Positions 231 through 10,931 of a stretch of DNA of 11,777 nucleotides are shown here, piece after piece. A program made the translations under genes and the position numbers. Source of the stretch: Jimgerdemannia flammicorona (lineage: Eukaryota; Mucoromycota; Endogonomycetes; Endogonales; Endogonaceae); the NCBI GenBank assembly GCA_003990745.1, contig RBNI01006066.1, positions 1-11,777 on the forward strand, given 5' to 3'. Each line of letters opens with the position of its first letter. The first letter of the stretch is position 1. The notes beneath the pieces were generated by a model. It ran no database searches and had not been told where the DNA came from. It saw nothing but the letters and a program-made list of their open reading frames with translations.

Positions 231-1915
231 TTCTCTTCTCTCTCTAGTTTCTCTCAATATACTCTCTTCTATCTACTCTCTCTCTCTTAAAAACTATCAG
301 TTCATCAACTATTATAACTCTTCTACCACTCTCCTTATAAATCTCTTTTATCAGATATTAATAGTGATTACTCTGAAGATACCATCTCTTCTAATAACTA
401 AATAAAATATATATCTACCATCAACTCCTCTCACTATACTATTCTCTCCTTTAAGACTATTCTTCTTCTATCCTCAAAGACATATAGCTAGTATCTAGCC
501 AACCCCACTCAGACTGCTAATATCCAACTAAGAGAGAACTACTTATTGCTGATATACTCTATCAACTACTCTCTTAAGTTCTCCCATTATTTCTCTTCCC
601 TACTCTCTTGTCTCTCTACTCTCAGATGACCTCCAACTATTACCTAGAAGTCTCTAAGTACTTTATACTCATATAGTCAATATTCAGATATCTGTATAAA
701 TTCTTCCTCCTACTCTATATCATAGTACTCCTTATATTAAAAAACCCTCCTATTGATCAAATATTCTGAATGAAAGTTTAATATGATATTTCTTCTCAAG
801 AAATATCACCACATTATCTAATTTTCAGAAGAAGCCATTATTGTATCTCTTTACTCTAAGACTAGATATTAGCCCAGTTTTATACTTTATTAATATCTAC
901 TATCTACTAACTAACTGACTATAGATTCTGTTTTACTCTCCTTTAATACTCTACTCTAATACTAATGTTAAAGTCTATTAGTTGAAATTTACTCAACAGT
1001 AGCTTATCCTATCTCTATATTATAGGTTTCTATATTATCTCTCCCTCATTACTATATGTATCAATATAAACCAATATAGTGAATATTTTCTATTACCCCT
1101 CACCAGAATCTCTTATACATACTGCAAGTACTAACTGTCACTCAGTTCAATTATTACTAACAAATCATCTGAAGAGTCTTTAGAGAAAAACCTTATCTCT
1201 CAGACCCTCTGCATCAATGGTACCTACCTACTACTTTATAGCTCAATAGTTCTCTTTAATGATCAAATCCTAAAACAGTATAGCTGCTTTAGAAAGTTCA
1301 CCAGATCTATATCTCCTCTAACTACTGATGTTGCCAATACCTTCCAATCAATCTGATACTATCTATTAGTCTAAATCTAGTCTTTGGTCATCTTTAACAA
1401 TTTCTTCACTACTTAAGCTAGAAAATTTAAGTAATATATCAGATACTATAGCTTCAGCAACTAGTAGACATTAAGAATCACTATATACTCAGTAAGAGAA
1501 ATATGATACCCCTCTTAACTCTGAAGGACATCTCTCTATTTTACTATCTTTCTCTTCTACCAAGCTCTAGATAAGATAGATCTATATATTAATAAGAAAA
1601 CACTCAGATATTTACAGTCTCTTCTGCAGAGACAATAGTTCCAATAATATCTCTACTAATTAGTCCATTCTCTAGCACTATTATCTCTTACTTATACCAA
1701 TTGAGCTTTATCCCAGAATATTCTTTATACTATACCACAGCTTCTCTCAGTATATCCATATTTATAATAGAGTCTAGTTCTACCACTATATTATCTATAA
1801 AGACTCTAATCTTCCAGATCACTTCTAGTACTAGAAGTTCTGATACCTTGAGTAAATTCTGTCTATTGTAATGATGATCTCAGAATGATGATATCATTAT
1901 AGGATATAGCCTTTC
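230..1915 (-). mobile_element. Decayed, 5'-truncated LINE (non-LTR retrotransposon)
   Basis: On the minus strand the sequence decodes, with many stops and some frame changes, into the catalytic and C-terminal portions of a non-LTR reverse transcriptase. The catalytic block and the following S/G-x-K-L-N-W-x-K-S-E-type block are at about 1860-1680, a stretch resembling the post-RT 'LSFRGK...LLLKLWYL' region at about 1560-1420, and a G-x-x-L-V-N-F-L block at about 1320-1260. No endonuclease or early RT fingers region precedes them, and the strand composition switches near 1910, as expected of a 5'-truncated insertion. Below about 960 I cannot read protein reliably; the left limit rests on the continued CT-rich composition. 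A Tad1-like fungal LINE is plausible but not demonstrated. Confidence 0.6.
1262..1860 (-). pseudogene. LINE reverse transcriptase catalytic core and thumb, degraded
   Basis: Read on the minus strand, the best-preserved block gives F-I-D-N at 1801-1790, where non-LTR reverse transcriptases carry F-A-D-D. It is followed by a leucine-rich helix and then G-I-K-L-N-W-Y-K-stop-E, matching the family's GxKLNWxKSE block. The second catalytic aspartate has become Asn (GAT to AAT) and the Ser of KSE a stop or lost codon, so the enzyme is dead. Downstream, about 1320-1262 reads R-G-D-I-D-L-V-N-F-L-K-Q-L-Y, like the conserved GG-x-G-L-x-N block after the RT domain. The enzyme would have copied its own RNA at a nicked chromosomal target. 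Assignment to non-LTR rather than LTR RT rests on the KLNWxKSE block; clade is not resolved. Confidence 0.6.
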
Positions 1916-1920
1916 CTTAG

Positions 1921-2940
1921 ATTGGAGCATAAGAAGATCATATAACATAACTCACTCAGGCTATAAGATGAGAAATAATGACTAACCATGAGTCATCATA
2001 ACCACAAGACAGACATCTTGAGAAATATAAAAGAAAGATCAAGAAACTATAGTAGCAGTAACTCAAACAAGGCTCACAGAAATAGTTCAAAAGACTTACC
2101 ACAAATAAAATACCTGCTGCTCATCAAATCTCAAGATCCAGGAACCACTAAGGCCCCTTAGTCTAGAAAAGAATATTCCAAAACATCAGAAGAGCCATGA
2201 GGATCTATACAAAAAGAACTCCTAGCCTTAACCTGAGTACTAGTGACTCTTATCATTATATCCTCTACTACTGTAAAATGGAAACAAGGATCACTATCCC
2301 TACTGAATGTCTCTAGATATGGCAGGAATATGAAATAGGAAACCTCCTCTGCTGGGAATTCCCTCAGGTCAGTCCCTAAGAGATACAAGATACCACTCTC
2401 ATGGATATATATAAAATAAGGACAGCCAAGAAGATTTATCAGATCTTTAGACATGCACCATAGTCAATCTCCAACTTGAAGTATACCAGAGTCTCAGACT
2501 TCAAGGAATTATCAGCCCACCATACCAATATACTGGAAGCTATGGTTGCTACAGAAGCCCAGTCTACTATCACTCTCAATAGTGATGAAGTAGAAGAGTT
2601 CTAGAATCTCATCCTCCAGGACAATCCAGATCAATTCCTACAGGAGTTGAACTCAGTATTCCAAGGCCCCAGTATCCAGGTCAGATCTCCCCAAGACCCC
2701 ACATTTGTTCCTTATTTTGTTGAAGAGAATGTCATAGATTGGAGAGCTCTTGCCACTACTGAATATGATAATGTTATTGGTAATGACATTATCCTGCTAA
2801 TTGGTAATATATACAAAATATATAAAACAGATAAAATATTCACTGACCTCATTTCCTTCAAAGACATCCTGTCTCCAACCTCTAGCCTTAATGATAGTGA
2901 TAAAGATAAAGCCCCCATAATCCTGAATATTCTGCTCTAA
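1921..2940 (+). pseudogene. Unrecognised decayed reading frame of about 340 codons
   Basis: Frame 1 reads from about 1921 to the TAA at 2938-2940. The first third (to about 2166) has many stops; from 2167 only four internal stops occur, at 2314 (TAG), 2377 (TAA), 2461 (TAG) and 2602 (TAG). All are one C-to-T step from glutamine codons, and the TGA upstream is one step from CGA. The N-terminal part is rich in Lys/Gln/Glu and could be coiled coil; the middle contains C-W-E-F-P-Q; the end is acidic and Ser/Asp/Lys-rich. It abuts the LTR-like segment. It could be the ORF of an older element or a captured host exon. I do not recognise a domain, and a minus-strand frame at 2158-2454 is also open, so the coding strand is not certain. 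Confidence 0.45.
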
Positions 2941-2956
2941 GTTCTTAGTAACACCA

Positions 2957-3046
2957 AAATCTTCTGGCATCTTTTTTCTATATAACTGAATTCTACTAGC
3001 ATCCTTTTTCTGTACCACTGAAATCTACTGGCATTCTGAACTTGTG
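2957..3046 (+). repeat. 32-bp tandem repeat, about 2.8 copies
   Basis: Three successive units at 2957-2988, 2989-3020 and 3021-3046 share the pattern AAWTCTWCTRGCATC followed by a T-rich stretch and CTG. The third unit is incomplete. Position inside the LTR-like segment fits a U3 enhancer-type repeat, but function is inferred only. Confidence 0.7.
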
Positions 3047-3170
3047 TAACCATTTGTACAGGTACTCAAATTTGTACTTACAGCCAAAGTTTTCTGTATT
3101 CCAGTATTTTATTTAATCATTAGAATTTATATTTAGCTTTATATTTGAGCAACTATCAAATTATATTTTG

Positions 3171-3178
3171 TATAAATA
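3171..3178 (+). promoter_or_regulatory. TATA-like box in the putative LTR
   Basis: TATAAATA, followed 27 bases downstream by AATAAA at 3198-3203. The pair resembles the R-region arrangement of an LTR. No transcription start is demonstrated. Confidence 0.4.
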
Positions 3179-3245
3179 TCCCTGTTATTTATTTTGAAAT
3201 AAAGTCAGTCAAGTTCACTTATACTCAATTCTATATAAGCAATCT

Positions 3246-4790
3246 AAGAGATAATAAGACAGTTTAAAGATAAGAAGTTTGAGGACTATAAGACCTTGAG
3301 AAGATACTCCAATAAGAACTTGCTTATAACAAACTTGTGGTTAGTATAAGAGATATATCTTGAAGAGAATCTGATATATTTGAAGGACTCAGTGACTACT
3401 ATGTGACAATTTGGTGCCCATTAGCAAGTGATTCAAGATGAGTTCCTCACTTTCAAGTTAAAAAACAAATAACTACTAAAACAACTACCCTGATTACAAG
3501 AGTCATTCCCTGTAAGAATTCAAGATAAGATAGAAATATATTCCCCTATATTCTATAGATATACTACTGAAGAGTCTATCCTGACCTTCATTGAAGACTT
3601 TGAAAATTTACCATCATATGAGCCCTCAATATTGATATACAATTGACTCTTCTACTAGTCAGCCTCAGAGGACCTGTCAGAGATAAGTTCAATGCAACCA
3701 CCATTACTAATGCTAGTACAGCCAAACTTGTTAATATAAAGAATTTCTCAGAACTATATACTATACTGAAGAGATCAAATAAGCTCTCAAGGATTAACTT
3801 AATACTATCTGTTAAGAACTTAGTAAAGACCCCAACTCATTCTACACTCAAATCTACTACCAGATTATCTTGGCTGGCTATGATAACTATCTTAAAGAAC
3901 AAATAGCTGATTCAACCTTCCTCAAAAGAGTCTATTCTGAAATTACTCTAGCAATCTGGTCTACTCTAGCTGCTCTGACCCTTGACCAGAAAGTGGTCTT
4001 TGCATAGAGATATTGAACTGTCAGATACTCTGCCAAACACTCAATGGAGAAAATAACTGGTATCAAGATGGAGCCACAAAAGTCAACTAGTATTATATCC
4101 ACCACAGTTATCAACAGACAACTATCCCCACTTACCCCCAAGGTAGCCAAAGCTGACCCAGTGGAGGAACTCACCAAGCAGTTTGCTGAGATGACTGCAC
4201 ACCTTGGTGATATTGTTAGAGAAGTCCAAAGTGCTAACAGAAAACTAGTATAGAGATTTGTGGTTACTATAGAAGAATGCAATATCACATACTTTAGATA
4301 TAGAGAAGAAGGCCACTATACAAAGAGTTGTATGACTGAAACAAGATACAAAGCCCAACCAAGCAATGCTACCAGAACTAGAGAACAAACTAATGTAGTA
4401 GTCATTGAGGAGATTGGTGATACTGATGATGAAGAATACTATGAGTAATCTGAATTCTACTCTATTACTGAAGATACCAGAACCTGATCCAAGCTCTATG
4501 ATAAGAAGAGCAACAGCAAGTCAGTTGGAAGATCAAAGAAGACTTCAGCTATCATTATTTAAAGCAAAACCCAATCTGAGGAGATTGATCAAGACATAGA
4601 GTTAGATGAAGCTACCTACCAAATTATTGAAGACACTACTCTAGTCTTAGGAGAAAGTGAGAGTAAGAAAGAACAGAAGCTATATAAGATCAAGATCCAC
4701 CAGTATGATATCTACAAGGATCTCAAGAAACAGAAGGTCAATACTACTTTTGGACAACTAGCTAAAGTCTCTGCCTTCAGACAGCAGTTA
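3246..4790 (+). pseudogene. gag: Gag polyprotein of Ty3/gypsy element with CCHC-like zinc knuckle, degraded
   Basis: Gag forms the virus-like particle and binds the element's RNA. Frame 2 runs from about 3246 to 3642, frame 1 to about 3868 (with L-R-G-P-V-R-D-K-F, matching the conserved end of Ty3/gypsy capsid domains), then frame 3 to about 4790. The nucleocapsid knuckle is at about 4290-4333: Y-F-R-Y-R-E-E-G-H-Y-T-K-S-C. Compared with C-x2-C-x4-H-x4-C, both leading cysteines read Tyr, as TGY-to-TAY changes would give, while the Gly-His and last Cys remain. Stops are TAG, TAA and TGA in places suited to Gln or Arg. Past the knuckle, frame 3 continues through an acidic and Lys-rich linker (4340-4790) leading to the protease. 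The true start codon cannot be chosen. Confidence 0.75.
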
Positions 4791-4795
4791 AGAGT

Positions 4796-5335
4796 AGGAC
4801 TTCAATTACTATCAAGAACCAAGAGTACAAGATCATAGAAGCTCACAATATACAAGAAGAATTCAAGAACTCAGATGAAGAATCTGAAGATCAGTACAAG
4901 ATATCAGCCTATATCTCATGTCAGATTGAAGATTGTATCTTTGATACCATCATTGATATCAGTGCTAGAGGATATCTCATGAGCAAGAAGACAATTGACT
5001 GCCTAGGCTGAGACATTGAAGAGTCTACCAAAATGATCTATATCATAGCAGATAGTATATAAGCTACCCCCCTAGGCAAGATCCAGGAAGTCTTCATCAA
5101 GATAGGAGGAGCTATCATTCCAGTAGATATGATTGTTACAAATACCACTAACTATAATATTCTCATTAGTAACCAATGGCTTTATAAGGCCAAGGCTGTC
5201 ATTAATCTTAATGCTCAGAAGATATAGATTAACTATAAAGGAAGAAAGATATGAGTCTCTATCAATATCTACAAAGAAGTACTACTAGACATGGAGAAAG
5301 GAGATGAAGAGGATATAGAAGTCTTCATATACTCA
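4796..5335 (+). pseudogene. Aspartic protease domain of Ty3/gypsy pol, degraded
   Basis: Retropepsin-type proteases cleave the Gag-Pol polyprotein as homodimers, each monomer giving one D-T/S-G-A loop. Frame 2 shows the active-site loop as I-I-D-I-S-A at 4952-4966: the aspartate survives, Thr has become Ile (C to T) and Gly has become Ser (G to A). The flanking context fits the family: a beta strand before it, S-K-K-T-I-D-C-L-G after it, then A-D-S-I, T-P-L-G-K-I, a flap-like I-G-G-A-I-I-P-V-D-M-I-V, and N-I-L-I-S-N-Q-W-L, like the family's I-L-G-x-x-W-L. Stops at 5009 (TGA, from CGA) and further on are decay. The domain is followed by a charged Lys/Glu/Ala-rich linker to 5610 leading into the dUTPase. 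Confidence 0.8.
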
Positions 5336-5610
5336 GTATATAAGAATAAGAGCAAGATACTTAAGCTCACAGATGAGCAGTAGTATGACAATATCATTAA
5401 TGACTATGCTCCTCAAGGAAGATGCCACCATAGTACTAGAATATACTACTCCAAACACCTGAATAACTGCTGGTCCTATATCAGTGAAGTCAGGAAAATC
5501 CACCAACAAAAGTATGAGCAAGAAGCTGCTGAAGCAAAAAGAAAAGCCAAAGAAGATGACTAGCCCCCAGAGCTTCAAGCTAATAGTGATGATGAGGAGA
5601 AACTAGAACC

Positions 5611-6054
5611 AGACATCACTCTTAAGGTCAAGAGTTTCATCCTAAAGCCAAGATCCCAGAATATAATACTGAAGAAGCCATAGGAATAGACCTTACTAGT
5701 ATCTAAGATGCTATCCTCAAACCACAGATCACTACTCTACTTGGCACTGGAATTGGAGTCAAGTTACCAGAGAACCATATCAGAATTATCAAGACCAGAA
5801 GTAGTCTGGCTAAGAGCAAAATCTCAGTTAAAGGAAGAGTAATTGACCCTGATTATATTGGTGAGATTTTTCTCATAGTCAGGAATCACAACTCTACCAC
5901 TCTATTCAAAGTCAAGAAGTATAACAGAATTGACCAGATATTGATCTATGAAGTCAAAAAGCCTAAGATCACTGAAGCCATCAAACTTATTAAGACTAAG
6001 AGAGAAGAACAAGACTTTGGATCTACTGAAAGAGGAGCCTATATATACTGCTAT
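5611..6054 (+). pseudogene. dUTPase domain inside the Ty3/gypsy pol, degraded but nearly full length
   Basis: dUTPase hydrolyses dUTP to dUMP and pyrophosphate, limiting uracil incorporation during DNA synthesis. The domain enters in frame 2 (L-K-V-K-S-F), shifts near 5636 and continues in frame 1 to about 6045. All five trimeric-dUTPase motif regions appear in order: motif 1 A-I-G-I-D-L-T-S (5677-5700), motif 2 ending T-R-S-S-L-A (5794-5811), motif 3 G-R-V-I-D-P-D-Y-I-G-E-I (5833-5868) with the catalytic Asp at 5845 and the base-stacking Tyr at 5854, motif 4 K-Y-N-R-I-D-Q-I (5917-5940), and the C-terminal motif 5 D-F-G-S-T (6013-6027). G-T-G-I-G-V-K-L-P (5743-5769) also fits the family. About 145 residues is the normal size. 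Decay: one stop (TAA 5704), eroded G-R of motif 2 and G-D/A of motif 4. It lies between protease and RT. Confidence 0.88.
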
Positions 6055-7021
6055 CAAGATTACCAAACTTGAGCACAAGAAAGACAAGGACCAGAACAAG
6101 CACACATATACCATTGGAGAAAACTTCTCTCTAGAAGAACAACTTCTCAAGATTCTATACCAGAATGAAGAAGTACTTGCCACAGACTTCAGAGACATCC
6201 ACAATCAAGAACTCAAGTACTATTATAAAGTTGACACTAGTGATACTAAGCTCATCTATCAGAAAGCCAGACCTATACTACTTGCCTATAGGGAATAGCT
6301 GTGAGCAGAACTCAAGGAAATAGAAGAAGTTAGAATCATCAAGCAAGCTATCAGCCCCTGGACTTCACTCATTGTCCTCACTCCAAAGAAAGGAAGTAAG
6401 TCTGGAGAGTTTTTTCCAAGACTCTGTATTGATTACAGGAAGCTCAATATAATTACTAAGAAAGATAGGCAATCCTTGCCAAATATTCAAGAAATCCTTA
6501 TCACTCTTAGAAGCAAAGCCAAATACTATACTACCTTAGATCTGTTCTCAGGCTCTATCAGATTGGTCTCACTTAAGATACCAGTGAGAAATCAGCCTTC
6601 ATCATACCTGATGCCATCTATGTCTACCTGTGAATACCATTTGGAATATATAATACTCTAGCAAGTTTTTAGTGAATAATGAACAGAGTTTTTAGCAATG
6701 AGATTGAAAAATGACTCTTTGACTATATTGATGATGTAATCATCTTCAGCAATACTGTATGAGAATATATCAACTATATATAGCTGGCTCTTAAAAAGCT
6801 CAAAAAGTATAGCCTCTATATCAAGCCCAAGAAGTACAAGTTTGCAGCTCAGGAAATTACCTACCTAGGGCACATCATCAACCAGACTGGAATTCATACA
6901 GACCCTATAAAGATTGAGGCTATTGCAGTCTACCCAAGATCCAGAACAATTACAGAAGTCTACACCTTCCTTGGACAGAGATTCATCAAAGAATACTCTA
7001 ATATTAGTGCTCTGAATAAAT
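6040..7021 (+). pseudogene. Reverse transcriptase domain of Ty3/gypsy pol, degraded and 3'-truncated
   Basis: RT copies the element RNA into cDNA inside the particle. Frame 2 covers the connector (about 6040-6298) and early RT blocks: P-W-T-S-L-I-V-L-T-P-K-K (6358-6393) and L-C-I-D-Y-R-K-L-N (6422-6448), then T-T-L-D-L-F-S-G (about 6530-6553). A frameshift there moves the rest to frame 1: Y-Q-I-G-L, E-K-S-A-F-I-I-P, P-F-G-I-Y-N-T, then the catalytic F-D-Y-I-D-D-V-I-I-F-S (6718-6750, YIDD intact at 6724-6735). Next come K-C-x-F-type K-Y-K-F, T-Y-L-G-H-I-I and F-L-G-Q-R-F-I-K-E-Y-S. Stops include 6296 (TAG), 6302 (TGA) and several between 6580 and 6790. The protein breaks off around 7021, before RNase H. 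The catalytic aspartates survive, but the gene is inactive. Confidence 0.9.
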
Positions 7022-7100
7022 GGAGTTGATCCAGATGAGATTCAATTCAGGTTTGTCATGTGATGGATTTGAATCAACTTGGATTGGTCTCATAATCTAA

Positions 7101-7258
7101 TCTGGATTGATCTATTCAGATGATCCATCCAGATTGATCCATCTGGATTGATCCATCTGGATTGATCCATCTGGATGATTCATCTGGATTGATCTGGATT
7201 GATCTATCTGGATTGATCCATCTGGATTGATCCATCTGGATTGATCCATCCAGATTGA
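7101..7258. repeat. 14-bp minisatellite, about 11-12 copies
   Basis: Consensus TCTGGATTGATCCA. Exact or near-exact copies are at 7101, 7128, 7142, 7156, 7193, 7207, 7221 and 7235, with 13-bp variants at 7115 and 7170 and 10-bp truncated units at 7183 and 7249. Weaker GGATT/GATCC-like words already appear from 7022. The array follows immediately on the end of the Ty3/gypsy RT remnant. Variation is partly C/T (TCTGG versus TCCAG, ATCCA versus ATCTA). No coding interpretation is needed. Confidence 0.95.
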
Positions 7259-7260
7259 AA

Positions 7261-7380
7261 TCTTTGGTGATATCACTCTTTCTTTTGTTCATTTTGCTCT
7301 TGTTTTTTTTTTCCTGTCACACTTTGGTGACATCACTCTTTCCTTTGTTCTCTTTCTTTTCTTTGTTCTTTTTCTTTATT
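7261..7380. repeat. 60-bp tandem duplication, T/C-rich, with a palindrome
   Basis: 7262-7290 and 7322-7350 match at 27 of 29 positions with a period of exactly 60 bases; both differences are C/T. Each unit begins with CTTTGGTGAYATCACTC; the first contains the perfect 10-bp palindrome GTGATATCAC (7267-7276). The remainder of each unit is a pyrimidine-rich tract. Confidence 0.85.
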
Positions 7381-7965
7381 CTTTCCTGCCGCATTATGAG
7401 CAAACAAAACAACAGCTCTTAATTTATATGTTAGTCCAGTCTACTCATTTTTTACCCTGCAATAATCATCAAAAGAGGGAGTATTTGAGGTAGAAATGTA
7501 CTCTCTGCTGATAATGTTAGATTCTTTCTTATATGGGCAGCATACAAGCTGTTCATCAAGAGCCAAAGGGGTGATGGTGGTGGCAATAGTGATGGTGACA
7601 GTGATGGTGGGGATGAGGGTGAATTCTAGCAATAACTTATGGCAGCCCTTTGGATCTCAGAATTCACAGATCTCACAGCTATATATACAGCAGCCTTTTT
7701 GGAGCAACTGGTAGTAGATGTAGGTTGCTCTTTTCTGCTGCTACTTTTTACTTGTTTAAATTCCCCCAGTATGATCTGATTCACCTCATGCTCTTCTTAG
7801 GGTCCACAGCTCTACAGCGAGATCTGCTGACTTTATTTGCAATATCTGGTCAAGATGAAGAAAGATTGGAGAATATTGTGGAGTATGCCTTTGGTAGCTG
7901 AGCTGTTGAGTCAATGCATCATGTGTTGGAGGTCTCAAAAGGAACAGAAGCAAGCCTTCATGAGT
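7381..7965. other. Stretch without a supportable gene
   Basis: Several short open frames exist on both strands (for example plus-strand frames in 7496-7714 and 7650-7901). None matches a family I recognise, and I could not link them by convincing splice sites with consistent phase. A GGTGAT-rich run lies at about 7567-7622. A short plus-strand stretch at about 7662-7718 reads like ordinary protein and could be a lost exon, but this is weak. Confidence 0.5.
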
Positions 7966-7966
7966 A

Positions 7967-8037
7967 ATCTTATACAACTTGTGCAACTTATTGGTGTGCA
8001 ACTTGTTGGCATACAGCTCACTCACTCACTCACTCAC
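7967..8037. repeat. 15-bp repeat block 1 plus CTCA microsatellite
   Basis: Units of the type GTGCAACTTRTTGGY at 7981-7995 and 7996-8010, with diverged units on either side (7967-7980 and 8011-8025), run into a CTCA tetranucleotide microsatellite at 8017-8037. The 15-bp period makes a translated frame appear as repeating Q-L-V/I-G-I/V, which explains one short open frame here. Confidence 0.8.
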
Positions 8038-8120
8038 ACTCTTTTTCTGAAATATCCATCTCTATATTTTATTTAATTTCATTTTTTACATGGTCTCTCC
8101 CTAAAAAACACTCATACCCA

Positions 8121-8195
8121 CATGCAACCTGCCTGCATACAACTTGCCCACATACAACTCATCTGTATACAACTCATCTATATGTAACCTGTCTG
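8121..8195. repeat. 15-bp repeat block 2, five copies
   Basis: Five back-to-back 15-mers (8121, 8136, 8151, 8166, 8181) with consensus CATACAACTYRYCTG. They share the AACTTG/AACCTG core and period with the block about 100 bases upstream and are probably the same family split by intervening sequence. Differences are mainly C/T and A/G. Confidence 0.85.
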
Positions 8196-8310
8196 CACAC
8201 TTATCTCAGTCCCTCAGATCAGGACTCAGTTCCATTGAAAAGGAGAGTTCAAAGTTACCCAAGTTCAATCATGTCTGGCATTTGATCAAATAGAGAAATT
8301 TGAGGACAAG

Positions 8311-9485
8311 ATGTTCAGTATGAGCAGTACCAGTATCATCATCAAGGCTTGGGGGTCTATATTCAAATCAGAGCCAATCATTCTTAACCAAGGGGTCCAT
8401 TGGCCAGCAAGAGTAACCAATGATAAAGAGAACTATATCTTTATTAATGAATATGGAGAGGTGGTTGCAATGGTGATAAGGAATCTTTATGATGATGAGC
8501 TTTGCCACCATATCAACAAGATTTGTGAGGATTGCATCAAATACTAGGTGGCAGGAAAGAGGGGGCAAAAAAAGCAAGGAGGAGGGGTTTGGACAGGAAT
8601 TGGGTATACTTCAACACTGGCAAAGGGTGGGTTCTGGAGTTCCAAAATCCCCCACACTTGTCTCCCTTTTTTTTTTTTCTCCTCTCTAGATAAATCTCAC
8701 TCTTTACTGACATACTCTTTTTGATACAATTCTAGGGATGCACAAGATTCTGTACCCCTACTGGAACTTTAGAAGTGCTGTCAAAGAGCAAACTGTGCAC
8801 AAGCATGACACAGTCTATATGGCAATAGTGGCTATAATCTGGGGTTCTTTGAGCAGATTGGTAGAGCGTATGGTAGGCCAGCTTGGTGGTGATCTCAGCA
8901 CAGCTATACATACATTCTTGGTGCAATTTAGCATGCTGTATGAGGTGAGGAGCTCCACTTTTTTGGGGTGCTACAGCCTGGGGGGTTTCTGCAATCTAGA
9001 GGGTTTCTGCGGCCCAGGGGGTTTCTGCCCCCCCACATGCAAAAGGACTGACTAGTTGCTATCTATTTTGGTAGATTTCTAAGCCAGGGCTCCCAGGGCT
9101 GGACCAAGAGCAGGTATCCACCAGCACAGTCTGGCAGTATAAGGTCCTGGGCCAAGGGTTCATCCAACTATATGCTTATATCATATCAGGATATATCAGG
9201 CACAATGTTTCTCTACCCATACACACAGACAACAATGTCACCCCAGTAATGTTTTACATCCCAGAAAGGAAGGGCCCAACCTGGGAGAATAGTGGAGAAG
9301 TCTGGTACAACCTCACCTATAGTTTCGAGGTCCTATTTGCAGCCAATACAGTCATCCTCTTCCAACCACATGACCACCATGGTACCATTACCTTCAAGGA
9401 GAGCTCAGACACAACAGTTGTCACATTCACAAAGAATGATAGGCTCATTAAGGCCTGGGACTGGTGGGTAGAGCAGTTTTTGTAA
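8311..9485 (+). CDS. Three-exon hypothetical protein, 277 residues, possible HxD...H dioxygenase-like fold
   Basis: Exons 8311-8524, 8736-8944 and 9075-9485 join without a stop into 277 residues. Exon 1 ends with T and exon 2 supplies GG, giving Trp72; exon 2 ends and exon 3 begins at phase 0. Both introns have donor GTGAGG and branch site CTGAC 22-24 bases before TAG. It is the only intact gene among decayed neighbours. Residues 30-71 include W-P-A-R-V-T and Y-G-E-V-V-A-M-V-I-R-N. Exon 3 carries L-P-I-H-T-D-N-N (191-195), G-E-V (215-217) and F-Q-P-H-D-H-H-G-T (237-245), a spacing reminiscent of the HxD...H iron ligands of 2OG-Fe(II) dioxygenases, for instance the fungal TET/JBP-like set. The usual 2OG-binding Arg is not obvious (Arg264 is far downstream), so function is a hypothesis. 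ATG 8311 is the first in-frame start after a stop at 8236; 8320 is an alternative. Confidence 0.6.
8525..8735 (+). other. Intron 1 of the 277-residue gene
   Basis: 211 bp, GTGAGG donor, CTGAC branch site at 8707-8711, TAG acceptor at 8733-8735. It contains a long T/C tract (about 8663-8690). Without splicing, the exon 1 frame meets TAG at 8545. Confidence 0.6.
8945..9074 (+). other. Intron 2 of the 277-residue gene
   Basis: 130 bp, GTGAGG donor, CTGAC branch site at 9048-9052, TAG acceptor at 9072-9074, phase 0 on both sides. It contains an 18-bp tandem repeat that stays open in the exon 2 frame until TGA at 9053-9055. Confidence 0.65.
8984..9028 (+). repeat. 18-bp repeat inside intron 2, 2.5 copies
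   Basis: Units starting GGTTTCTGC at 8984, 9002 and 9020. Two complete 18-mers share the pattern GGTTTCTGC plus a nine-base tail ending YAGRG; the third is interrupted by a C run. In the exon 2 frame it would encode a six-residue G-x-F-C repeat. Confidence 0.8.
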
Positions 9486-9569
9486 GGGTTAGGCAATCTT
9501 TCACAAGGGATAGGCAGTCTTTTGTGAGGGTTAGGCAGTTATTTTGTATAAGTTAGGTAGTCTTGTGTG
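9485..9569. repeat. About 21-bp degenerate tandem repeat, four copies
   Basis: Units at 9485-9505, 9506-9526, 9527-9549 and 9550-9569 with consensus AGGGTTAGGCAGTCTTTTGTG. The first unit begins on the last base of the stop codon of the 277-residue gene (TAA 9483-9485), so the array forms the start of its 3' untranslated region. Confidence 0.8.
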
Positions 9570-9736
9570 AGGGGTTGGGCTGGGTGCCTCTTCTGTAGTA
9601 CTAGCTTAGCTATTATGCAGGGCCCTACCAGCTCCTTGGCCCTGCTCTGCAGTGCTACTGGTGCAGTGCTGCAGTGCAGGGCCAGGGTGCTCATGGGACT
9701 CAAACCAGTGATGGGGCCCAAATCTGTTGTGGATTT

Positions 9737-9856
9737 TGACTGCTAGAAGTACCCTCTGACTGCCAGAAATGCCCTCCAACTGCCAGAAGCTCCCTCCGAC
9801 CACTAGAAGCACCCTCTGACTACTAGAAGTACCCTCCAACTGCCAGAAGTACTCTC
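9737..9856. repeat. 20-bp tandem repeat, six copies
   Basis: Six contiguous 20-mers starting at 9737, 9757, 9777, 9797, 9817 and 9837, consensus YGACTGCYAGAAGTACCCTC, every unit ending in CTC. Differences are almost all C/T or A/G. Between this array and the 21-bp repeat (9570-9736) lies a GC-richer spacer with CAGTGCTGCAG-like words and no gene I can support. Confidence 0.92.
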
Positions 9857-9867
9857 TACCCCAGACT

Positions 9868-10560
9868 CCTTGGTGGCTTGGGGCTACTCCTATGCCACTG
9901 ATAGAGGATTGCAAATTTTGTACACTCCCTTTGCCTGCCCTGCCCATCCCAGGCACTTGCAGCTTGGGGCTGCCCCTTGCTGCTGGTGAAGGGCTGCAAA
10001 TTTTGCATGCTTCCTTACTGACCCTGCTCACTGATCTGGGTACTGATAGCTTGGAGCTATCCCTCACTGCTGGCAGAGGGCTGCAAATTTTGTGCGCTCC
10101 CTCCATCTGCCCCACCTGTCCTGGACACTTGTGGCTTGGGGCTGCCCCTTACTGCCAGCAGAGAGCTGCAAATTTTGTGTACTCCCTCCACTAACCTCAT
10201 ACCCATCAACTCCGCTGACTGACTCTACCTACTGACCCAGGCGCTGACAGCTTGGAGCTACCCCTCACTGCTGATGGAGGGCTGCAAGTTTTGCATACTC
10301 CCTCTGCCAACCCCCCCTCTGCCAACCCCCCTGACTGGGACACTTGCAGCTTGGGGCTGCCCCTTGCTACCAGTGGAGGGCTGTAAATTTTGCATGCTCT
10401 CTCCGCCAACCCTGCACCCACCCACCAACCCACCCACTGATCTGAGCACTGACAGCTTAGGGCTGCCCCTTGTTGCTAGTGGAGGGCCACAAACATTACA
10501 TGCTCTCTCTGCTGCCACTGTCAACCCCACCAACTGCTGCCCACTTGGGCCACAAACTCT
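9868..10560. repeat. Long-unit tandem array (about 85-115 bp) with two alternating subtypes
   Basis: The word GCAAATTTTG or a close variant recurs at 9911, 9996, 10083, 10168, 10284 and 10383, with a decayed copy near 10488: spacings of 85, 87, 85, 116, 99 and 105. Between these words two versions of a GCTTGGGGCTGCCCC-type block alternate. Type A (ACTTGYRGCTTGGGGCTGCC) is at 9951, 10123 and 10337; type B (CTGAYAGCTTGGAGCTAYCC) is at 10039 and 10240; a B-to-A hybrid is at 10444. An A-like copy starts the series at 9868. The effective unit is therefore a dimer of about 170-215 bp. Open frames on both strands are by-products of the GC-rich, stop-poor repeat. Confidence 0.85.
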
Positions 10561-10665: not shown

Positions 10666-10857
10666 TTAGCGGCCCAAGCCCCACTAAGACTTCAGACACA
10701 TATACACCTGGATTGTCTCAGTATTCAGCATACACCTCTTTGGGGCAATGAGGTCTACCCTACCTAAGAACACCCACTCAACAGGAGCACTAGAGGCAGG
10801 AATTGCCAGATAGTCCCAAGCCATGCCATATAGGCTGGGGAAGTCTGTTTGATGCAG

Positions 10858-10931
10858 CTGCATGCCCTAGTGGGTAGAGCGGTGGTTAGATTGGTGGGTT
10901 AAATTGGCCTAATGCCCACCTGACAACCCAC
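10858..10931 (-). other. hAT intron between exons 3 and 4
   Basis: 74 bp on the minus strand: donor GTGGGT directly after W-W-K, CTAAC branch site in the middle, acceptor GCATGCAG, phase 0. Removing it restores the W-W-K to L-H-Q-T-D join typical of the family. Confidence 0.75.

Follow-up and report, generated by a model that had tools for sequence, protein, structure and literature searches.

Does the dUTPase-like sequence between the protease and reverse-transcriptase remnants of a decayed fungal Ty3/gypsy element belong to that element and, if it does, where was it acquired and what might it do? The question is posed by an 11,777-nucleotide stretch of Jimgerdemannia flammicorona DNA (the window, contig C6066), which we analyzed within an assembly of 134.8 Mb in 7754 contigs. 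A fungal source is indicated by 22 matches in this assembly to the fungal transcription-factor domain PF04082, for which 14 bacterial and archaeal control genomes had no match. We think it likely that the window holds a dead, truncated copy of a high-copy Ty3/gypsy element, and that its dUTPase (DUT) is an inherited Pol module, gained once and directed against dUTP.

All parts of the element lie on the forward (+) strand. A 5′ LTR (1867..3408), which starts with TGTAATG, ends with GTGACA, and aligns to both LTRs of a full-length relative (L059), is followed by an internal region (3409..7005) that was defined by alignment to L059 and ends inside the reverse transcriptase (RT). From 1863 to 7005, LTR included, the window was 80.6% identical to L059 positions 522-5691 in reverse-complement coordinates (5227 columns). 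Near 7005 the element breaks off into other repeats; it keeps the 5′ LTR only, its 3′ end is missing and RNase H is not reached, and the RNase H and integrase of the family are visible only in other copies. An eroded Gag zinc-knuckle region (4254..4445) had no Pfam match in the window itself, and the corresponding stretch of L059 matched zf-CCHC (E 4.8e-5). The retropepsin (PR) remnant (4766..5224) consists of two open pieces with a changed active-site motif: the piece at 4766-5008, which carries the changed DTG-type site, had no Pfam match, and the piece at 5063-5224 matched RVP_2 (E 3.3e-4; 1.3e-9 for the L059 counterpart). A cysteine/histidine module (5423..5479), placed in the linker between PR and DUT by alignment to residues 123-141 of another copy (L061), has lost its last Cys in the window. 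The dUTPase domain follows (5629..6042), and then a truncated RT remnant (6044..7011) in two frames with several stops, identified by alignment to L061 and by weak RVT_1 matches of two pieces (E 0.13 and 0.004).

Alignment to L061, which has a natural 795-residue open frame spanning the end of PR, DUT, RT, and RNase H, showed how the window copy has come apart. The PR end and linker (5063-5638) aligned in frame 2 (74% identity), the dUTPase (5629-6042) in a single frame, frame 1 (78%), and the RT in frame 2 at 6044-6553 (84%) and in frame 1 at 6556-7011 (69%). The original prediction had placed the dUTPase between a retropepsin and a Ty3/gypsy RT; this order holds, but both neighbors are eroded and the frames change. 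The window copy is dead: its frame differs from piece to piece, DUT is interrupted by a stop, and the RT ends abruptly near 7005.

Multiple comparisons support the identity of the dUTPase. First, the frame-1 piece at 5707-6069 matched Pfam family PF00692 (E 6.7e-17), a profile search that bears out the dUTPase originally read from the letters alone. Second, the domain matched solved dUTPases in the PDB with E values as low as 2.2e-12. Third, motif 3 (VIDPDY) and the terminal FGST, both said to be retained, are present. Judged by these matches, 5629-6042 certainly encodes a dUTPase of the trimeric type. The domain had also been described as complete in its five motifs, and here the identity stood but the integrity did not: a stop at 5704-5706 falls between motifs 1 and 2, and of the 11 columns without variation in a set of 55 other dUTPases, nine are preserved in the window, which has lost one glycine of the GG preceding VID and one position in motif 5. 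The window also keeps 14 of the 24 columns that are conserved in at least 90% of those 55 sequences.

The conserved catalytic-family columns are retained by the family, not by the window copy. The L061 domain matched PF00692 with E 4.9e-28, and its dUTPase identity was also found at E 1.2e-22. It keeps 11 of 11 invariant columns (L061 stands outside the set of 55) but has the common residue at only 13 of the 24 nearly invariant ones and departs at 11, three of them around motif 2, and L061 therefore appears by sequence to encode a divergent enzyme. The motif 3 Asp and an FGST or FGSS were found in all 17 rows of the alignment, and motif 2 reads IK-T/P-RSS, versus the common APRSG, in L061, P0125, P0126, and P0133.

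The PR-DUT-RT family is large and of high copy number in this genome. A search with the window DUT piece yielded 4923 first-look candidates and, counting the piece itself, at least 150 scored matches, the others being 78-86% identical to it, and a DNA-level search with the window DUT gave at least 40 scored matches among 1257 candidates. Of the RT matches, 150 were listed and the top 30, with the window among them, were examined; in 30 of 30 loci the RT piece was preceded by a DUT match at a distance of about 0.6 kb; L043 retained only the second half of DUT, and L031 and L036 carried it in two pieces. Because the domain occupies the same place in every one of these loci, it is not a nested insertion in those copies. 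The original prediction had named copies lacking DUT, together with signs of a later nested insertion in the window copy, as what would speak against it, and had proposed a search for intact copies; L061 supplies a natural frame running from the PR end (assigned by alignment to the window piece that matches RVP_2) through DUT and RT to RNase H. The frame changes that flank the window DUT on both sides might be taken to mean that it arrived between PR and RT later, as an insertion of its own, or that its open frame is due to chance. This reading is refuted for the copies examined by the constant position in 30 of 30 loci, runs against the single L061 frame and the strong dUTPase profile matches, and has a negligible probability.

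The full-length anatomy of the family is given by L059, in which 1.5-kb LTRs surround a CCHC-PR-DUT-RT-RNase H-integrase array. Its LTRs (528-2071 and 7778-9320, about 1.54 kb) are 92.6% identical and are flanked on both sides by CTAT, a candidate target site duplication of four bases only. The Pfam order was zf-CCHC, RVP_2, dUTPase (E 1.1e-27), RVT_1, RT_RNaseH, Integrase_H2C2, and rve, with the RVT_1 and rve matches below their cut-offs; L059 thus has both the paired LTRs and the PR-RT-RNase H-integrase order of a Ty3/gypsy element. Gag was recognized by its zinc knuckle, and the Gag piece matched no Pfam capsid model. No Chromo match was found in the integrase-end piece or in nine of the 11 other stop-free pieces of at least 20 residues (the remaining two have 21-22 residues), although erosion of L059 could hide a chromodomain. 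As to a retroviral env gene, no ORF of at least 70 residues was listed between the integrase end and the 3′ LTR, and the short pieces there had no Pfam match above cut-off. A chromodomain remnant (L060:84-338, E 3e-12) lies upstream of another family copy and probably belongs to a different element.

The PR-DUT-RT order itself is already published for fungi (PMC2864245), for bdelloid rotifers (PMC5408684), and for a planarian element (PMC6431247), and the original suggestion that Gag-PR-DUT-RT might be new as a fungal layout is not supported in view of PosPlaTy3-5 of Postia placenta. In that element, as described by Novikova et al. (2010; PMC2864245), the dUTPase lies between PR and RT, and earlier fungal reports are cited there, including 2008 papers and elements from Phanerochaete and Tmt1 of Tuber, which we know through that citation. 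Likened by description alone, PosPlaTy3-5 and the window family are both fungal Ty3/gypsy elements with a Pol dUTPase between PR and RT; the legend to the dUTPase tree in that paper refers to chromodomain-bearing elements, whereas no chromodomain was found in L059. The bdelloid elements Juno, Vesta, and TelKA, as described, resemble our family both in carrying DUT between PR and RT and in having no chromodomain (Rodriguez et al., 2017; PMC5408684), and some bdelloid elements carry a third ORF (PMC5408684). The giant Burro elements of planarians likewise have a dUTPase-like domain between PR and RT but are much larger and are described with extra domains (PMC6431247). With the present analysis, the fungal Ty3/gypsy elements that carry a dUTPase of their own gain one more family, an abundant one.

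In retroviruses the dUTPase is located elsewhere and either precedes PR or separates RNase H from integrase. Many cellular dUTPases matched the window piece better than did the retroviral Pol dUTPase 1f7d. Like the family domain, the dUTPases of betaretroviruses and non-primate lentiviruses are of the trimeric type and are encoded by the retroelement (Hizi and Herzig, 2015; PMC4531489).

How was the domain acquired? In a protein database search with the L061 frame, 16 of the 120 pol relatives listed (of 1363 hits) carried DUT, and in 16 of 16 it preceded RT; because DUT was part of the query, DUT-bearing pols are favored in this list. Among seven database pols scanned with Pfam, PR preceded DUT in P0125 and P0129, and the other five had no PR match reaching 1e-5, P0128 starting after PR by eye. 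The order PR-DUT-RT with the dUTPase in one Pol frame was found in L061, and the order was also found by Pfam in P0125 and P0129. A homology search with the family DUT alone returned three proteins only. In a tree of RT-RNase H sequences, built without DUT from 60 rows (15 DUT pols, L061, a further dUTPase-bearing element, L062, and 43 non-DUT hits, for which the best 30 of 104 and one in six of those ranked lower were taken; P0124 was dropped for its short overlap), the 15 DUT pols and L061 formed one clade with support of 100/100, and L062 fell outside it. In a 55-row DUT tree, from which P0130, P0135, P0136, and P0138 were omitted as they begin inside DUT, the 15 domains of the PR-DUT-RT lineage were united at 89/86, a moderate support from a bootstrap that had not settled. 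Distances in DUT and in RT-RNase H agreed across 12 members (Mantel r 0.668, with 0 of 5000 permutations as high), and mean identity over these members was 40% in DUT and 55% in RT-RNase H. These comparisons suggest that DUT was probably gained once, long ago, in the PR-DUT-RT lineage and was inherited with RT, rather than captured recently from the host. They are evidence for a single gain followed by retention through deep divergence, and retention this long makes a retrotransposon's need for dUTP control testable.

A host source had been offered as a possibility in the original prediction, together with a phylogeny as the way to check it. A recent capture of the host fungus dUTPase by the family lineage alone would be in keeping with the report that fungal Ty3/gypsy elements acquired dUTPases independently and from different sources (PMC2864245), and in this genome the DUT of a second family, described below, is 50-55% identical to four named fungal cellular dUTPases. 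However, the family DUT stands apart from those same four enzymes in the tree and groups with the domains of other PR-DUT-RT pols, whose RT-RNase H sequences also form one clade, and such a capture is very unlikely. The host's own cellular enzyme was not distinguishable: with a fungal cellular query, the top eight places were all among those listed for PF00692 and, where opened on the right strand, were copies of the second family; capture from a close relative of the host is therefore conceivable.

In the window family, the linker that leads from PR to DUT holds a single cysteine/histidine module, C-x-H...C-x2-C. A strict pattern, C-x(1,3)-H-x(5,16)-C-x2-C, occurred upstream of DUT in seven of 13 rows (L061, P0124, P0128, P0129, P0131, P0132, and P0139), versus 0 of 104 non-DUT hits; the 13 rows are those DUT pols that extend upstream of the domain, and the other four rows start inside it. 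The pattern was missing from P0125, P0126, P0127, P0133, P0137, and P0140, of which P0127 and P0140 have only 8 and 68 residues upstream of DUT. The number of modules rises from one in the window family to three in metagenomic relatives by the strict pattern (P0128, P0129, and P0131, three copies each) and to six to seven by a looser pattern, overlaps included (six places in P0131 and seven, partly overlapping, in P0132); the looser pattern also catches the ordinary Gag knuckles of P0125. Shuffling was tried on five sequences, and between 0 and 4 of 2000 shuffles reached the strict counts. The patterns were written after the sequences had been seen, and the counts are therefore descriptive.

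No Pfam model covered the module in four proteins at E values up to 5, and the literature searched, which mostly omits subscription journals, described no such array. Within that literature the nearest described counterpart is the extra zinc knuckle of Juno, which lies upstream of RT but after DUT, whereas the modules of the window family precede DUT and have other spacing (PMC5408684). The module between PR and DUT is possibly new. The modules presumably bind zinc, and we suggest, tentatively, that they form an undescribed zinc-binding-type array in this lineage that may hold the dUTPase on the RNA or cDNA template, so that dUTP would be removed at the site of reverse transcription. Their linkage to DUT suggests a larger accessory unit than the dUTPase alone.

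What might the domain do in a working element? In L061, a single frame covers the PR end, DUT, RT, and RNase H, and in functional members the dUTPase would be a module of the Pol polyprotein in that same frame. By homology, it would be released or remain tethered, form a homotrimer, and hydrolyze dUTP inside the virus-like particle or in the cytoplasm. As RNA is copied, the cDNA would then take up less uracil, in settings where the cellular dUTPase is presumably low. The domain would have been acquired once in an ancestor of the lineage and passed on with RT, and the window copy would later have been mutated by C-to-T changes and split up by other repeats. By homology, keeping uracil out of cDNA is a plausible function. 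The usual rationale for such a dUTPase invokes a host that excises uracil. A search of the contigs, an incomplete set, gave 0 candidates for a uracil-DNA glycosylase, an absence that is weak evidence against this function because the RPB2 family gave two loci only and because introns hide genes. According to the review consulted (PMC4531489), dUTPases lower the ratio of dUTP to dTTP, and retroviral cDNA is generally regarded as harmed by uracil, though a benefit against self-integration is described as well.

Alternatively, the dUTPase could have been kept for a non-hydrolytic job, as a trimeric scaffold for Pol or in binding nucleic acid or protein, with the CxH...CxxC modules helping to tether it. 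A precedent exists in bovine immunodeficiency virus, in which a dUTPase-related gene is critical and its protein is reported to lack dUTPase activity (PMC4261571). Also in keeping with this account are the motif 2 departures from APRSG in four pols, the 11 nearly invariant columns at which L061 departs, and the restriction of the strict module pattern to DUT pols among the sequences compared. Against it, the full set of invariant columns in L061, and the motif 3 Asp and FGST or FGSS in every row, would be unexpected were catalysis dispensable. We consider a non-hydrolytic role unlikely and favor a catalytic Pol module acting on dUTP.

The same genome contains two more dUTPase-bearing families. 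In family 2 (L003, L004, L006, and L007), DUT lies between the Gag knuckle and PR by eye, and in its member L071 a dUTPase match (E 6.3e-36) is followed by RVP_2 (E 3.9e-6). In a third family, L062 carries, in one frame, a knuckle that scored just under the cut-off and a dUTPase after it (E 2.6e-34), RT-RNase H in the next frame, and an integrase followed by a chromodomain (Chromo, E 4.5e-17); its PR was recognized by eye only. These dUTPases, like that of the window family, are carried by retrotransposons, but DUT precedes PR in L004/L071 and follows the Gag knuckle in L062, and thus dUTPases stand on both sides of PR in one genome. L062 further differs in its chromodomain, none having been found in L059, and in an RT outside the PR-DUT-RT clade. 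Differing dUTPase positions within one genome have already been reported for Postia placenta (PMC2864245).

All of these elements could descend from one capture, after which the domain moved across PR. When all retroelement DUTs were held together, the tree was not rejected (p-AU 0.704), and the held tree outscored the free tree; nor was a tree holding the L062 RT with the PR-DUT-RT clade rejected (p-AU 0.428). Further one-clade DUT tests were likewise not rejected (f1+f3, p-AU 0.448; f2+f3, p-AU 0.72; f1+f2, p-AU 0.265). By contrast, the free trees placed family 2 DUT in its own clade (100/97) among cellular-type dUTPases and the L062 RT outside the 100/100 clade, two placements that are weak because the domain is short and the branches are long. 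A common capture is possible but doubtful, and the trees suggest that the PR-DUT-RT family originated independently of the other two.

The elements show extreme C-to-T decay, and on both strands. Between the two L059 LTRs, 115 of 1542 columns differ and 114 of these 115 differences are transitions, which makes LTR divergence unfit as a clock. C/T difference rates in these LTRs were 0.69 at CpG, 0.17 at CpA, 0.14 at CpC, and 0.03 at CpT, and the observed/expected CpG ratio of the window element (3409-7005) was 0.00. C/T and G/A differences were about equal per base, with both strands alike. The decay resembles what would be left by deamination of methylated cytosine in double-stranded DNA. Strand-biased deamination of cDNA was rejected on the near equality of C/T and G/A differences, and classical CpA-only RIP was a poor fit, as CpG was most strongly affected. 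For context, black truffle elements are heavily methylated with a CpG preference, and evidence of RIP is reported there as not found (PMC4165359). The assembly contained two weak matches to cytosine-methylase exons.

Other repeats surround the element in the window. Positions 1-1860 belong to an older AT-rich repeat; other places align to it over long stretches with an identity of about 68-76% (1459 candidates, at least 40 of them scored). A separate interspersed repeat lies at 7290-9590, and its copies, some full and some partial, almost all show 84-87% identity (779 candidates, at least 40 of them scored). At 7093-7283 and 9718-10511 there are tandem repeats, whose periods are 14 and 20 bases, and repeated units about 85-116 bases apart. 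On the minus strand, 10687-10866 holds a remnant of a hAT transposase dimerization region (E 6.1e-10).
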